Positions 1 to 6,174 of a stretch of 6,174 bases of DNA are shown here, one piece after another. Origin of the DNA: a bacterium (GTDB taxonomy: Bacteria; Krumholzibacteriota; Krumholzibacteria; LZORAL124-64-63); NCBI GenBank assembly GCA_030592025.1, contig JAUUZX010000101.1, forward strand, positions 1 to 6,174, read 5' to 3'. Both the position numbers and the translations under genes were made by a program. The first letter of the stretch is position 1, and the number at the start of each line of letters is the position of its first letter. The notes below the pieces were generated by a model. That model was given only the letters and a program-made list of their open reading frames with translations, did not search any database and was not told the origin of the DNA.

Positions 1-1
1 C

Positions 2-187
2 CTGGCGGGCGGCGCGGGCGTCATCTACCTGACGGGCCTTCCTTGCGAGCACTTCGCGAGCTATCCCGAGGTCTGCACATGCGAGCACTCGGCCACCGTG
101 ACCTCGGCCGAACTGGTGATCCAACTCGGCACGGGCGTGCCTATGGACCAGCGCAGTTGGGGGACGATCAAGGCCCTGTACCGCTGA
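2..187 (+). CDS. 3' end of a gene for a probable secreted protein with a WG-IKALYR tail
   Basis: Only the last 61 codons are present. The frame is open from base 2 to the TGA at 185-187. The visible part has three cysteines in two clusters (LPCEHF, then VCTCEH), a short beta-strand-like segment (ELVIQLGTG), and ends in RSWGTIKALYR just before the stop. The same tail closes the secreted protein at 4284-4889 (GWGKVKALFR), so I infer that this is another member of that class of exported proteins with a beta-sandwich-like body and a conserved C-terminal tail. The start, signal peptide and most of the body lie upstream of the window. It converges on the DUF2779 gene with a 27-bp gap. The function is unknown. 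An overlapping + frame starting at 43 is arginine/proline-rich and is a shadow. Confidence 0.75.
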   Translation: MAGGAGVIYLTGLPCEHFASYPEVCTCEHSATVTSAELVIQLGTGVPMDQRSWGTIKALYR

Positions 188-1836: not shown

Positions 1837-2196
1837 ATGAGCCACGACGACCTGCCCGAGCCCCCGGACATGAGAAAGGTCCACGCCCTGCGCAAGAAGA
1901 TCCGCGCGGACAGGGGCAAGGAGCACAACTACCACCGCACCCCGTTGCATGACCGTTTCACCCGGGATGGCGGCCGGTCCGCCCGCGACATCGGCAGCTA
2001 CACCATGATCCCCATGATGATGCTCGTCGGTCCCGTCATCGGCTTCCTGATGGGCCACTACGTGGAGGGTCGTTTCGGTGGCGAGCCGTGGGTTGGGGTG
2101 GGGGGTCTCGTGTTCGGACTGGCGGCGGCGGTGAGGCAGATCGTCCTCATGTTGCAGAGGAAAAATCCGCCCCCGGACCCCAAGGACAGCATGTAA
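1837..2196 (+). CDS. atpZ: AtpZ/AtpI-family small membrane protein
   Basis: This 119-residue protein has a charged, hydrophilic N-terminal part (1-54, many Arg, Lys, Asp and His) followed by two predicted membrane helices, about 55-75 (IGSYTMIPMMMLVGPVIGFL) and 85-106 (WVGVGGLVFGLAAAVRQIVL). The turn between them, EGRFGGEPW, and the glycine-rich second helix match the AtpZ/AtpI family. That family is encoded at the head of many atp operons and has been linked to F-type ATP synthase assembly or ion handling. The ATG at 1837 has GAGG five bases upstream; the in-frame ATG at 1750 would add residues from the promoter region and is rejected. No atpB or atpE gene follows; about 390 bp without a gene and then a terminator come next, so this is an orphan copy within the window. 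The family call is fairly secure, but the role is inferred. The hydrophilic N-terminus looks longer than in typical members. Confidence 0.75.
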   Translation: MSHDDLPEPPDMRKVHALRKKIRADRGKEHNYHRTPLHDRFTRDGGRSARDIGSYTMIPMMMLVGPVIGFLMGHYVEGRFGGEPWVGVGGLVFGLAAAVRQIVLMLQRKNPPPDPKDSM

Positions 2197-2218
2197 AAAG
2201 CGGCCACCCCAAAACACT

Positions 2219-2245
2219 TTCGAAGATTATTCGAGATTATCTCGA
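2219..2245. repeat. Tandem TTCGA(A)GATTA repeat overlapping a 15-bp palindrome
   Basis: TTCGAAGATTA (2219-2229) is followed at once by TTCGAGATTA (2230-2239). The second copy is also the left part of TCGAGAT-T-ATCTCGA (2231-2245), an inverted repeat with perfect 7-bp arms around one central base. The 8-mer CGAAGATT recurs at 2313-2320. Such clustered repeats could bind a regulator or form a small hairpin; no function is shown. Confidence 0.5.
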
Positions 2246-2259
2246 TCCGCAAAGCCCGT

Positions 2260-2277
2260 TAACGAAAATAACGAAAA
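2260..2277. repeat. Perfect 9-bp tandem repeat TAACGAAAA x2
   Basis: TAACGAAAA occurs twice head to tail (2260-2268 and 2269-2277). It lies in the same AT-rich patch as the TTCGA(A)GATTA repeats. It could be a protein-binding site or a slippage product. Confidence 0.5.
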
Positions 2278-2418
2278 CTCACCTCGCCCCCGCCACCCCC
2301 CCCCTCGATTTCCGAAGATTTCCAACCGAAGTCGTCCGTTTCCGTTGCTGCCCATGGGGTTAATCCGCCATATTGTATCGTGTGATTGGAGCGAGATACC
2401 ACAAATGAGATCCGAGGG

Positions 2419-2624
2419 GGTCTTGGGGCGGCTGAACCGTCGAAAAGGTTTCCGGCGAGCGACGTGTGGGGGACAGCACGTGGAGACCTGGGCGAGAATG
2501 CGATGGGGAGGGCCGCCCCCAGAACTTGGGACCATGCCGAGCCGTATGCTCTGCTTGCATACCATCACCTGATGGCGGCTCGCCCGGTCGTAGGAAACCT
2601 GCAATCCTACGGCCGGGGTTTTTT
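2419..2624 (+). ncRNA. Candidate structured non-coding RNA ending in an intrinsic terminator
   Basis: A run of nested complementary segments with no reading frame to explain it. Domain 1 (2419-2533) can close by GGTC (2419-2422) with GACC (2530-2533) and by GGGGCGGC (2425-2432) with GCCGCCCC (2512-2519), with small hairpins inside such as ACGTG/CACGT (2462-2466, 2477-2481). Domain 2 (2538-2582) is a three-way junction: outer stem CGAGCCG/CGGCTCG (2538-2544, 2576-2582), hairpin TATGC/GCATA with a 7-nt loop (2545-2561), and hairpin CCATC/GATGG with a 4-nt loop (2562-2575). All 17 pairs are Watson-Crick and the junction has no spare base. The terminator stem starts at the very next base. I do not see the signature sequences of tmRNA, RNase P RNA, SRP RNA, 5S rRNA or a riboswitch I know. 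The 5' end is uncertain, and no strong promoter is visible. Domain 1 has alternative pairings and is much less secure than domain 2. It could instead be the 3' UTR of the AtpZ-like transcript or an attenuator leader. Confidence 0.55.
2583..2624 (+). terminator. Strong Rho-independent terminator
   Basis: CCCGGTCGTAGGA (2583-2595) pairs with TCCTACGGCCGGG (2605-2617) in a 13-bp stem with a single G-U wobble. It has a 9-nt loop and is followed by G and six Ts (2619-2624). It acts only on + strand transcripts. The nearest upstream + gene ends 386 bp earlier, which is the main reason to suspect a separate RNA ending here. Confidence 0.9.
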
Positions 2625-2653
2625 CTGCCAAAATCCGTTGACCCCGCTATACT
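2625..2653 (+). promoter_or_regulatory. Candidate promoter for the HTH/FG-GAP gene
   Basis: CTGCCA (2625-2630, 4 of 6 to -35) and TATACT (2648-2653, 5 of 6 to -10) have a 17-bp spacer. The -35 begins at the base after the terminator T-run, giving a clean terminator-then-promoter boundary. The expected start near 2660 leaves a leader of about 55 nt before the ATG at 2714. A TTGACC at 2638-2643 lies too close to this -10 to be its partner. Confidence 0.5.
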
Positions 2654-2713
2654 CGATACCGCACCACCACATTCAGTCCCTGGTATTCGGGGGAACATCC
2701 GTGACGGGGCACC

Positions 2714-4021
2714 ATGCCGAACATTGAACTGCCAGATGACTTTCCGGAACGACTCCGCGCATTCCGCACCGCCGGTCAATTGGCCGAGTCGGAGTTGGCC
2801 GCCAAGGCGGGCCTGACCTACAAGACCATCCGCGACCTCGAGACCGGCAAGCGCCGTCGCGTCATGGAGCGCACGGTCATGGTGCTGGCGGCGGCGCTCG
2901 AAATGACCACCGAGAAACTCCTGGGGATCGAGCCCCCGTCCGACTCCCCGCCCGAAACTCCCCCCGCCCCCCAGCGCCGCCGCTGGAGCACCGGGTTCAT
3001 GGGTGTGGCCGTCACCCTCGTCGTGGTGGTGGCCGGTCTGCTGGTCGCTACCCGGTACGCCCACAAGCACGCCAATTGGGATGTCGGGCGTGATGTCCTG
3101 ACCGTGCGCGACGCCATCTTCGGCATCACCCTGTGGGAAGCCCACGCCGAGGCCCAGTTCACCTTCTGTGAGGAGTCGCCCTGGAGCCCCCACCACCTGC
3201 TGGTGGGCCTGGGCAGCAAGTCCCCCGACGGCGGTCGTCTTCTGTGCCTCGAACGGGCCACCGGCGACACGATCTGGTCCGTGGGGCCCGACATCGAGGC
3301 CGTGGTCCGAGCCTTCGGCCCCGAGATCGTGAATGCCGCCAACTTCAGCGCCCGGGGACTCAAGACCGCCAACCTGGACGGCGACGGCACCCCCGACCTG
3401 GTCGTGAACTTCATGCACGGTCCCTACTACCCCAGCGTCCTGGCCTGGATCGACCGGGACGGGAACCGCGTCGCCCAGTATGCCAACAAGGGCCACCTCA
3501 CGGACTACACGGTCGTCGATTGCGACGGGGACGGTCTCGACGAGGTCGTGGCCTGGGGCACGAACAACGCCCTCGACTACCAGGGCGGCACCGTGATCAT
3601 GCTCGACGCCGACCACTGGCGGGGCGCCTCCATCGACTCCTGCTGCAGCCCCGCCAGCACCGAACCCGACTCGGCTCTCCTGCGCCTGGTATTGCCCCAG
3701 TACCCGGAGGCGTACATGAACATCATGGGCCACCGACGTTTGACCACCTTCGGCCTCCAGGCCTACCGCGGACCCGGCGGCGCCACCATGTTCAGCGTCG
3801 GCATCGGGGGCAACACCCATCAAGGGGTCGTCCTCACCCTCGATGACCAGCTCCGCCCTCTGGGCGCCCGTTCGTCGGACACTTTCCTCGCGCACATGAA
3901 GCGCGACTGGCCCGACAGCCTCGTCCAGGGCGCCGGCCCGAGCGACGAGGTGTGGCTCGCGCGGTGGCTGACGCATCATCGGCGGTTCGAGGCGGGGCAT
4001 CGGCCAGTGGTTGCGGAATAG
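2714..4021 (+). CDS. Membrane-anchored Xre-type HTH protein with extracytoplasmic FG-GAP-like domain
   Basis: This 435-residue protein has three parts. Residues about 10-71 form an Xre/HTH_3 DNA-binding domain (LAESELAAKAGL, then the recognition-helix region TYKTIRDLETGKRR). A proline-rich linker (74-87) and an RRR cluster (88-90) precede one membrane helix at about 95-113, so the positive-inside rule puts the HTH in the cytoplasm. The remaining 320 residues lie outside and carry two DxDGDG-type calcium-binding loops typical of FG-GAP/VCBS beta-propeller repeats: NLDGDGTPDLVV (Asp222, Asp224, Asp228) and DCDGDGLDEVVAW (Asp271, Asp273). The order HTH-TM-outer domain resembles RodZ or one-component membrane sensors such as ToxR/CadC, but the outer domain is different. 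I infer that it senses something outside the membrane or anchors DNA or a complex at it. The ATG at 2714 is the first start after an in-frame TGA at 2702-2704; GGGG at 2706-2709 may be the ribosome site. Target genes are unknown. Confidence 0.8.
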   Translation: MPNIELPDDFPERLRAFRTAGQLAESELAAKAGLTYKTIRDLETGKRRRVMERTVMVLAAALEMTTEKLLGIEPPSDSPPETPPAPQRRRWSTGFMGVAVTLVVVVAGLLVATRYAHKHANWDVGRDVLTVRDAIFGITLWEAHAEAQFTFCEESPWSPHHLLVGLGSKSPDGGRLLCLERATGDTIWSVGPDIEAVVRAFGPEIVNAANFSARGLKTANLDGDGTPDLVVNFMHGPYYPSVLAWIDRDGNRVAQYANKGHLTDYTVVDCDGDGLDEVVAWGTNNALDYQGGTVIMLDADHWRGASIDSCCSPASTEPDSALLRLVLPQYPEAYMNIMGHRRLTTFGLQAYRGPGGATMFSVGIGGNTHQGVVLTLDDQLRPLGARSSDTFLAHMKRDWPDSLVQGAGPSDEVWLARWLTHHRRFEAGHRPVVAE

Positions 4022-4076: not shown

Positions 4077-4220
4077 GTGAACAACAAGGTCCTCGTCATC
4101 ATCGGCACCGCCGAACCGGAAAAGGCCCACGCCGGCGCCCTGGCCGACCTGGACGTGCAGTTCGTGGGCCCGCTCATCAGCGAGGCCATCCGCGAGGGGT
4201 ACGTGCCGCTGGTTTGGTGA
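4077..4220 (+). CDS. Small 47-residue protein, GTG start, possibly a shortened DsrE-like protein
   Basis: The frame starts with GTG at 4077, preceded by a near-ideal ribosome site (AAGGAGA at 4064-4070, 7 bp from GGAG to the start), and ends at the TGA at 4218-4220. It begins MNNKVLVIIGTAEPEKAHAG, a hydrophobic beta strand followed by a small-residue loop and a helix. This resembles the start of DsrE/DsrF-type proteins. The remainder includes DVQFVGPLISEAIREGY and ends PLVW. DsrE-family proteins are usually over 100 residues, so this would be a truncated or internally deleted relative, or an unrelated small protein. There is no signal peptide or membrane helix; it is probably cytosolic. It lies 55 bp after the HTH/FG-GAP gene and 63 bp before the secreted-protein gene, in the same direction. 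The GTG start makes it easy to miss. I am fairly confident that it is translated, but not of its family. Confidence 0.6.
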   Translation: MNNKVLVIIGTAEPEKAHAGALADLDVQFVGPLISEAIREGYVPLVW

Positions 4221-4283: not shown

Positions 4284-4889
4284 ATGGGAAAGCTCATCGT
4301 CACGTTGGCTGTGTTCATTCTGTTCACCGGCGCCGCCTCCGCCCAGGACATCGGCCACCACCCGAACGAGATCGGCGTGTACATCACCGAGACGCCGACC
4401 GGCGTGGCTGACGCGATACTGACGGCGACGGAAGGCGGCGTGTACCGGGCCCACCTCGTCCTCTCGAATCCGGTGAACGAGCACACCGGCGACCCGATCA
4501 CGACGCTGGGCTACTTCGAATTCGTCGTTCGGTTCCCCGCCGGCTGGGAAATCAAGGACGAGTTCATCCACTGCGACAACGGCTTCATCCCCCGAAACTC
4601 GGGCGTGTTCGCCTGCGACGGCCCCCATCCCGTCATGGACGGCTACGCGACGCTGGTGTCCTTCTACCTGGAAACGACAACGGCCCCGGCCGGCGAGGTC
4701 TTCCTCTCCCCCAACGCCTCGGCGGCTACCATCCCCGGTCACATGGTGATCTCCGACGCCTTGGACCGGACGTACTCCAGGGCCTACCCCGTCTCGGGGG
4801 ACTACGCGCGGCCGGTCATGGGCATCAACATGGCCGTCGTGCCGGGCGAGGATGCGGGTTGGGGTAAGGTGAAGGCGTTGTTCCGTTAG
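4284..4889 (+). CDS. Secreted protein with signal peptide and C-terminal WG-VKALFR tail
   Basis: This 201-residue protein starts with a clear signal peptide: MGK, a hydrophobic core (LIVTLAVFILFTGA) and an A-S-A cleavage site before Gln21 or Asp22. The mature part begins near NEIGVYITE and alternates short hydrophobic strands (YRAHLVLSNP, GYFEFVVRF, ATLVSFYLE), as expected for an all-beta, cohesin- or fibronectin-like sandwich. Two cysteines (97 and 111) could form a disulfide. It ends GWGKVKALFR at the stop, like the partial gene at 2-187. From memory, proteins of this general layout (GIYFD-like start, LTNPT-like strand, WG-IK-LYR end) are abundant in Krumholzibacteriota/Eisenbacteria genomes, without known function. 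GGGG at 4274-4277 precedes the ATG. No catalytic motif is seen; a surface, adhesive or structural role is a guess. Confidence 0.8.
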   Translation: MGKLIVTLAVFILFTGAASAQDIGHHPNEIGVYITETPTGVADAILTATEGGVYRAHLVLSNPVNEHTGDPITTLGYFEFVVRFPAGWEIKDEFIHCDNGFIPRNSGVFACDGPHPVMDGYATLVSFYLETTTAPAGEVFLSPNASAATIPGHMVISDALDRTYSRAYPVSGDYARPVMGINMAVVPGEDAGWGKVKALFR

Positions 4890-4956: not shown

Positions 4957-6174
4957 CTAGTGCCCCGCATCCGCCCGCATGTGCCCCGCCAACTCCCTGA
5001 TCTCCACCAGGTCCTTCTTCATCTTGGCGTAGCCGTACCAGGTGGCGTAGTCCGGGTTCATGTGGAACGTGCCCTGGAACGCCTTCATGCGGTGGTCCAT
5101 GAACATCTCGTAGAGGATCAACTCGATCTTCGTGTTCACGTCGTAGAACTCGAGCAGGTCCGGGTACTCGGCGCCGGGGCGGTGGTCGTACTTGATGACC
5201 CCGTCACGGTACAGGTCGGCGATGATCTCGATGGCCGCGGCGAAGACCTTGTCGATCTCCTTCACCATGGCGTCGGCCTGGGTGAAGTTGTCCTTCACGA
5301 AGCTCGGCGTGTGGCAATCCTCGCAGACCTTGACGAAGCGCGCGCGCTCCACGTCGAAGTCTTCCTTGGTCAGGCGCGCCACCTGGCCACCCTTGACGAT
5401 GTCGAGGCGGGCGGTGGGCTGACCCGCGGGGTCCAGCACGCCCAGGGCCTTCAAGATGCTCACCCGGTAGCCCATCCACTCGGCGTCTTCCTCGGGCAGG
5501 CGCACGGCCAGGAAGCCCCAGGCCGAGTATGCGCGGTGGTTGCCATCCTGCATGTGGCAGGTCTGACAGGTGGGCGCGCGGCCCTTCTCGCCGTCTTCGC
5601 CCAGGGCCCGGTTCATGAGGTAGGTCGTGCCGTGCTTGGAGCTGGACCACATTTCCCATTGGGGATGGTCGAAGCCCATGTGGCAGGTCTGGCAGGCTTC
5701 CGGCTCCAGGGCCTCGACCTTGCGGAAGGCGTGGCGCGTGTGGCAGTTCTGGCAGTCCATGCCGTAGTGGTAACCGTCGGGCGATTCCTTGGCGCGGGAC
5801 TCTTCGGTCACGCCCAGGGTGTGGCAGCCGCCGCAGCCCTGCTGGCCCTCGTTGAAGGCGCTCGGCTGCATGTGCATGGTGGGCATCGCCTCGAGGGCGA
5901 CCATGCCCAGGGCGTGCTTGCCGCTCATGTACTGGTCGGCCTGCTCCTCATGGCACTCGGCGCAGGTCTCGATGGTCGGCAGCTTGGCCTTGGCCACGTC
6001 GTCGGCGCTGGTGTGGGCGTCGCCGTGGCAGCCCGTGCAGTCCATCTCGTGGGACATGACGCCGCGGTTGAAGTCCACAACCAGGTTCGGGGTCATCTTC
6101 GCGTGGCAGGTCTCGCAGTCCGACGGGACGGCCTGGGCCGCGCCCGCCAGCAGGAGCACCAGCAGCAGGGGAAC
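4957..6174 (-). CDS. Octaheme c-type cytochrome of the hydroxylamine oxidoreductase (HAO) family, 5' end missing
   Basis: The frame is open to the window edge and the true start lies beyond it; the GTG at 6157-6159 is inside the signal peptide (VPLLLV-LLLAGAAQA, cleaved before VPSD). Counting from that GTG, there are eight CxxCH heme sites at 15, 41, 66, 109, 136, 156, 198 and 279. Spacing and flanking sequence match HAO-like octaheme proteins: CQNCHTRHAF, PEACQTCHMGFDHPQWEM, SSKHG, CQTCHMQDGNH and the C-terminal helical part with HMNPDYATWYGY. The protein is exported and heme-loaded outside the cytoplasmic membrane. The family oxidises hydroxylamine or hydrazine, or reduces nitrite or hydroxylamine; which of these applies depends on a cross-linking tyrosine near heme 4 that I cannot align by eye. 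No redox partner gene is in the window; one may lie upstream of this gene, beyond 6174. The family call is strong and the reaction is open. Confidence 0.88.
   Translation of the reverse strand, partial: VPLLLVLLLAGAAQAVPSDCETCHAKMTPNLVVDFNRGVMSHEMDCTGCHGDAHTSADDVAKAKLPTIETCAECHEEQADQYMSGKHALGMVALEAMPTMHMQPSAFNEGQQGCGGCHTLGVTEESRAKESPDGYHYGMDCQNCHTRHAFRKVEALEPEACQTCHMGFDHPQWEMWSSSKHGTTYLMNRALGEDGEKGRAPTCQTCHMQDGNHRAYSAWGFLAVRLPEEDAEWMGYRVSILKALGVLDPAGQPTARLDIVKGGQVARLTKEDFDVERARFVKVCEDCHTPSFVKDNFTQADAMVKEIDKVFAAAIEIIADLYRDGVIKYDHRPGAEYPDLLEFYDVNTKIELILYEMFMDHRMKAFQGTFHMNPDYATWYGYAKMKKDLVEIRELAGHMRADAGH

Follow-up and report, generated by a model that had tools for sequence, protein, structure and literature searches.

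The intergenic fold between an AtpZ-like gene and a gene with helix-turn-helix (HTH) and FG-GAP-like parts, in the window analysed (the whole stretch of 6,174 nucleotides), is most likely a structured message tail rather than a new kind of RNA, and probably consists of an intrinsic terminator with an incidental or stabilising folded 3′ UTR (Table 1). Of the two options left by the preliminary description, a structured 3′ UTR and a non-coding RNA not described before, the first is favoured, as the terminator and the promoter-like site have counterparts in L001, the locus of the nearest relative compared (MAG Gpa_8), whereas the second has lost ground, the junction stems not having been found in relatives. 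The terminator and 3′ UTR reading is preferred because a similar, fully paired terminator occupies the same place in L001, where the junction was not found; because the only plus-strand promoter-like site detected by scanning positions 2100–2800 lies 3′ of the terminator and is aligned with a TATAAT of L001; and because the terminator is predicted with a probability of at least 0.87 from 16 of 18 5′ ends (2200–2536), in a span with no coding signature and no Rfam match.

Table 1. Coordinates of features in the window and, where a locus is named, in related loci.
Feature	Position	Strand	Basis
AtpZ-like gene (PF09527), nearest upstream plus-strand gene	1837–2196	+	Domain search
GAAAY-N5-GAAAY direct repeat, 10-bp period, candidate operator	2308–2322; L001 5661–5675	-	Enrichment upstream of HTH/FG-GAP genes
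Upstream G-rich domain: GGGGCGGC (2425–2432) pairs with GCCGCCCC (2512–2519)	2425–2519	+	Free folds; not alignable in L001
Three-way junction, 7+5+5 pairs	2538–2582	+	RNA folding; no convincing copy in L001 or 80 genomes
Junction outer stem, 7 pairs	2538–2544/2576–2582	+	Predicted fold
Junction hairpin, 5 pairs, 7-nt loop	2545–2549/2557–2561	+	Predicted fold
Junction hairpin, 5 pairs, 4-nt loop	2562–2566/2571–2575	+	Predicted fold
Intrinsic terminator (predicted): 13-pair stem, 9-nt loop, G, U6	2583–2624 (stem 2583–2595/2605–2617, U6 2619–2624)	+	RNA folding; similar terminator in L001
Promoter-like site of HTH/FG-GAP gene: CTGCCA, 17 nt, TATACT	2625–2653 (TATACT 2648–2653)	+	Promoter scan; TATACT aligns with L001 TATAAT
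Gene with N-terminal HTH and FG-GAP-like part	2714–4021	+	HTH_3 and FG-GAP scores just below Pfam curated cut-offs
47-aa remnant of the 111-aa short protein of L002, downstream of HTH gene	4077–4220	+	Protein comparison
R2 motif	L016 1253–1307	+	
R2 motif	L017 103–155	+	
R2 motif	L006 11–63	+	
R2 motif	L027 3063–3115	-	
R2 motif	L028 3059–3110	-	
R2 motif	L014 3140–3183	-	

Refolding of positions 2538–2624 gave the structure of the preliminary description, with stems of 7, 5 and 5 bp, Watson-Crick pairing in 17/17 junction pairs, zero unpaired bases at the junction, and a terminator stem that begins (2583) at the base next to the end of the junction (2582). The wording that 2538–2617 is almost continuously paired proved generous, 60 of these 80 bases being paired. 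The whole element has a minimum free energy of -46.2 kcal/mol (z -6.0, matched by 0/200 dinucleotide shuffles), and the junction with a few flanking bases (2535–2583) one of -21.2 kcal/mol (z -3.34, equalled by 1/200 shuffles). The Rfam look-up that had been proposed for the fold returned no family for 2538–2624 in a covariance-model search at E ≤ 5; the single match in the window at this threshold, at 5866–5933, is unrelated and below the gathering score. A UGGGACC 5′ of the junction suggested a T-box; this reading was rejected, Rfam being without a match.

In shape the junction goes beyond chance; in stability it hardly does. The strict 7/5/5 geometry occurs 0 times in related loci (596,420 bases, both strands counted, some loci overlapping) and 0 times in 740,880 shuffled bases, while four relaxed definitions, applied to 21 related loci with 99,587 bp in total, gave 0, 0, 2 and 1 clusters, all definitions, strict and relaxed, having been fixed after the structure had been seen. 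Comparable stability is common in this GC-rich DNA: z ≤ -3.3 was reached in 23 of 2834 49-nt segments of the 21 related loci and in 11 of 1022 such segments of the window itself, and the raw energy of the junction in 713 of 13,052 45-nt segments from the 21 loci.

The predictions for longer transcripts indicate that the terminator is robust and the junction conditional on the 5′ end, an argument against any switch that would depend on the junction. Among the 18 5′ ends between 2200 and 2536, the outer stem reaches a probability of 0.9 or higher from 11 and stays under 0.5 from the remaining 7; from ends 2460 and 2480, alternative pairing lowers the terminator to 0.41–0.43. For 11 ends between 1750 and 2450, a pairing limit of 150 nt gave 0.78–0.97 for the outer stem at 10 ends and 0.21 at end 2450; with no span limit the outer stem ranged from 0.00 to 0.98 and the terminator kept at least 0.79 at 10 of the 11 ends, with 0.48 at 2450. 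The junction competitors are CCGCCAU (2365–2371) and the 3′ arm of the G-rich domain, which has the 3′ arm of the junction as its alternative partner. The 260-nt span 2365–2624 (z -3.3) beats 200/200 shuffles, with a best fold that lacks the junction, whose 3′ arm pairs elsewhere.

The predicted terminator combines a GC-rich hairpin with a U-rich tract, as in intrinsic terminators, and one of its 13 stem pairs is U-G. The -10-like box lies 24–29 bases past the U tract, and 89 bases separate this tract from the start codon of the HTH/FG-GAP gene. A scan limited to sigma-70-type promoters found none on the plus strand between the AtpZ end (2196) and 2538. No plus-strand terminator was reported by the terminator scan between AtpZ and 2583; the same scan also missed the 2583–2617 stem, because its 9-nt loop exceeds the loop limit of 8. 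The distance given earlier between the nearest upstream plus-strand gene and the terminator holds: AtpZ ends at 2196 and 386 bases precede the stem. The fold was likewise correctly described as lying outside any gene: three plus-strand ORFs, one per frame, and one minus-strand ORF of the intergenic region lack the high third-position GC (0.88) of AtpZ and the HTH gene, with ORF 2386–2727 having GC of 0.65/0.52/0.63 by codon position vs 0.63/0.42/0.88 in AtpZ.

The protein encoded at 2714–4021 carries a HipB-like HTH domain scoring below the NCBIfam cut-off and a hydrophobic stretch read by eye as one membrane span. The HTH/FG-GAP proteins are an uncharacterised family of possibly membrane-bound regulators, present in 16 of 80 Krumholzibacteriota genomes with up to four copies per genome; in viral contigs, 26 stretches fit a pattern of the HTH protein and 0 were confirmed. 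In L002 the 111-aa short protein (4286–4621) follows AtpZ; the 47-aa copy of the window, which runs from 4077 to 4217, retains both ends, and by eye that of L001 (about 5339–5570) is internally shortened too. Elsewhere in the window (1–187 and 4284–4889) and in neighbour genes of L028 and L030, similar protein C-termini were seen by eye (SWGTIKALYR, GWGKVKALFR, VFGSVKALWR, SLSQVKALFD), a shared motif that is perhaps a sorting or anchoring signal.

The relatives compared are Krumholzibacteriota MAGs. Relatives of the AtpZ-like protein were found in four contigs, and two of the four genomes, those of L001 (G001) and L003 (G003), also have a strong HTH/FG-GAP match. Among the loci compared L001 is the nearest relative, yet it is distant: its neighbouring protein, assumed to be P0005, is 59% identical. 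Closer relatives, P0002–P0004 with 60–64% identity, are represented by protein sequences. Its gene order is AtpZ, short-protein remains, terminator, TATAAT box and HTH/FG-GAP gene, and the alignment of window 2197–2713 with L001 5571–5919 has three pieces in common: the GATTTCCGAAnATTTCC direct repeat, the terminator, and the segment that follows the terminator and carries TATACT in the window and TATAAT in L001. What is observed, besides the sequence and its predicted fold, is a similar terminator and a -10-like box at the same place in one relative. In the L001 terminator (5779–5822), 11/11 countable pairs form in both sequences, two of them changed on both sides and two on one side; as only two sequences are compared and 108/500 shuffles score equally well, this agreement is consistent rather than strong.

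A covariance-model check of whether the junction stems are preserved had been suggested; no such preservation was found, either in L001 or across the 80 genomes searched from the phylum. Model R1, in which the window sequence was entered twice and which is therefore a single-sequence model, matched only the terminator half of L001 (21.7 bits, E 0.005). A 7-bp CGCGCGG/CCGCGCG stem lies 5′ of that terminator in the short-range fold; it is not a three-way junction and is absent from the best fold of the longer stretch. Under strict filters, with at most 54 candidates scored per genome, R1 had matches at E ≤ 1 per genome in 6 of the 80 genomes (best 0.0275, 19–25 bits), and inspection of these six weak matches revealed no convincing junction: L080 combines a terminator with a short outer stem; L081 has a terminator and two hairpins but lacks the outer stem; the match in L082 (G075) is similar to the junction, yet it sits in antisense orientation inside an open frame; and L083–L085 (19–24 bits) have broken or missing stems. 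A DNA search with 2200–2660, with at most 8 candidates scored per genome, gave matches at E ≤ 0.1 in 14 of the 80 genomes (best E 0.0016 per genome, none in G001), all of 18–45 bases and read as chance. No match to the element was detected by DNA search in plasmid and phage records, and one exact pattern of it was found 0 times in viral contigs. With L001 distant, the model built on one sequence and the candidates per genome limited, a narrowly distributed RNA could have escaped these searches. The literature search yielded no riboswitch report for Krumholzibacteriota and no non-coding RNA report for Krumholzibacteri, and, among the papers listed, no on-topic report of a three-way junction with a Rho-independent terminator in a bacterial small RNA.

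The region upstream of the HTH/FG-GAP genes holds two further recurrent elements. The GAAAY-N5-GAAAY repeat, first spotted by eye, has 13 matches upstream of 11 of 22 HTH/FG-GAP genes (the 22 include that of the window), about 15-fold more than the 0.85 predicted by its overall frequency in the retrieved loci; ten matches lie on the strand of the gene and three (window, L001, L029) on the other. Other periods, from 6 to 20, gave 0 to 3 matches, and in seven genomes the stricter pattern KGAAAYN4KGAAAY was counted 3 to 25 times each, its reversed control 0 to 2 times. The repeat looks like an operator, perhaps of the regulator itself.

The other element, R2, is a two-stem structure with an 11-nt loop containing an invariant CUCGCCC, upstream of the gene in G003, G057, G058, G059, G060 and G062. 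In six sequences chosen by eye, 10 of its 15 pairs change on both sides, with a covariation score of 0.453; shuffles gave 0.136 and slid controls no more than 0.178. L020, which had been noticed, and L013, with a similar hairpin downstream of the gene, were left out of the model, and L020 was not recovered by it. Among the 80 genomes the model found one copy each in six, its own building set, and none in the other 74 at E ≤ 0.1; at most 71 candidates were scored per genome, so further copies may be missed. Eight loci, namely the six with R2 plus L020 and L001, were without an Rfam match at E ≤ 1. R2 was not found in the window, where, with filters off, the best score in 2190–2720 was 6.8 bits; in L001, scores of 14.4 and 12.4 bits (E 0.004 and 0.011) fell on the terminator stem, one on each strand, lacked the CUCGCCC loop and were read as stem similarity only.

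Under the preferred reading, a transcript from the AtpZ side would end at the predicted intrinsic terminator, which would halt RNA polymerase and insulate the HTH/FG-GAP gene, itself read from its own promoter-like site. The three-way junction would be a lineage-specific folded segment of the 3′ UTR that may stabilise the 3′ end of the RNA, or keep the upstream G-rich RNA from invading the terminator stem. We infer that termination happens here and that a promoter feeds the transcript, and any role of the junction is proposed in the same sense. Three points count against the terminator and 3′ UTR reading: an untranslated tail of 386 bases is long for a plain 3′ UTR, the strict geometry was met nowhere else in related loci or shuffles, and the conservation of the terminator rests on one relative, with 108/500 shuffles equal. 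The strict geometry is also what opposes the thought that the junction arose by chance in a GC-rich genome and only the terminator matters, a thought that deserves weight, though with odds clearly short of even, given how often equal z values occur in relatives and in the window, the failure to find the junction in relatives, and the competing folds at 7 of 18 5′ ends. This alternative overlaps the preferred reading, keeping the terminator and denying the junction a role, and therefore the probabilities attached to the readings do not sum to one.

A discrete small RNA of ~90–250 nt, with its own promoter, an end at 2624 and the junction as its functional head, is possible but unsupported, and we regard it as unlikely. 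Its stable junction and terminator, the rare geometry, the long non-coding span with an additional G-rich stem and the shuffle-beating 2365–2624 (although best folded without the junction) would suit it; against it stand the empty sigma-70-type scan between 2196 and 2538, the want of a convincing junction copy in the 80 genomes and of any in phage or plasmid DNA or, for one exact pattern, viral contigs, and the empty Rfam result. Less probable still is a 5′ leader attenuator of the HTH/FG-GAP gene, in which transcription would start upstream and a choice between terminator and antiterminator would set read-through. The 89 bases to the start codon, the position of the GAAAY repeat, which in window and L001 alike precedes the terminator, and the fall of the terminator for ends 2460 and 2480 and, with no span limit, 2450 are what it would lead one to expect, but the terminator holds for the other 16 of 18 ends and, with no span limit, for 10 of 11, the gene is separated from the terminator by a promoter-like site whose -10 box has a counterpart in L001, and the upstream region that would hold the antiterminator is not alignable in L001. 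Equally speculative is the idea that about 2330–2624 is a lineage-specific regulatory RNA whose transcription would be set by the HTH/FG-GAP regulator via the GAAAY repeats at 2308–2322, with the junction as functional head, and which would take the place that the CUCGCCC-loop element has ahead of this gene elsewhere in the phylum.

For now the element reads as an ordinary predicted terminator whose folded 3′ end is unusually tidy, and it cautions against relying on a perfect fold of a single sequence in GC-rich DNA, which is weak evidence. Should a discrete RNA be demonstrated, it would be specific to the lineage and linked to a regulator family, so far uncharacterised, of an uncultured phylum. 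The better targets lie upstream of this regulator family: the operator-like repeat and the motif with covariation.

The tRNA-like dimensions pointed out in the preliminary description are real, a 7-bp outer stem and a 5-bp hairpin with a 7-nt loop being shared with tRNA, yet the element is no tRNA: ARAGORN predicted 0 tRNA or tmRNA genes in the window, and a tRNA has a four-way junction whereas this one is three-way. The R2 motif is, like the window element, structured and intergenic before an HTH/FG-GAP gene, but differs from the junction in its fold and its invariant CUCGCCC loop. The closest likeness lies with intrinsic (Rho-independent) terminators with structured 3′ UTRs, which share the GC-rich stem with an immediate U tract, the gene upstream and the next promoter-like site downstream, and from which the present case differs by the unusually regular three-way junction abutting the terminator stem.
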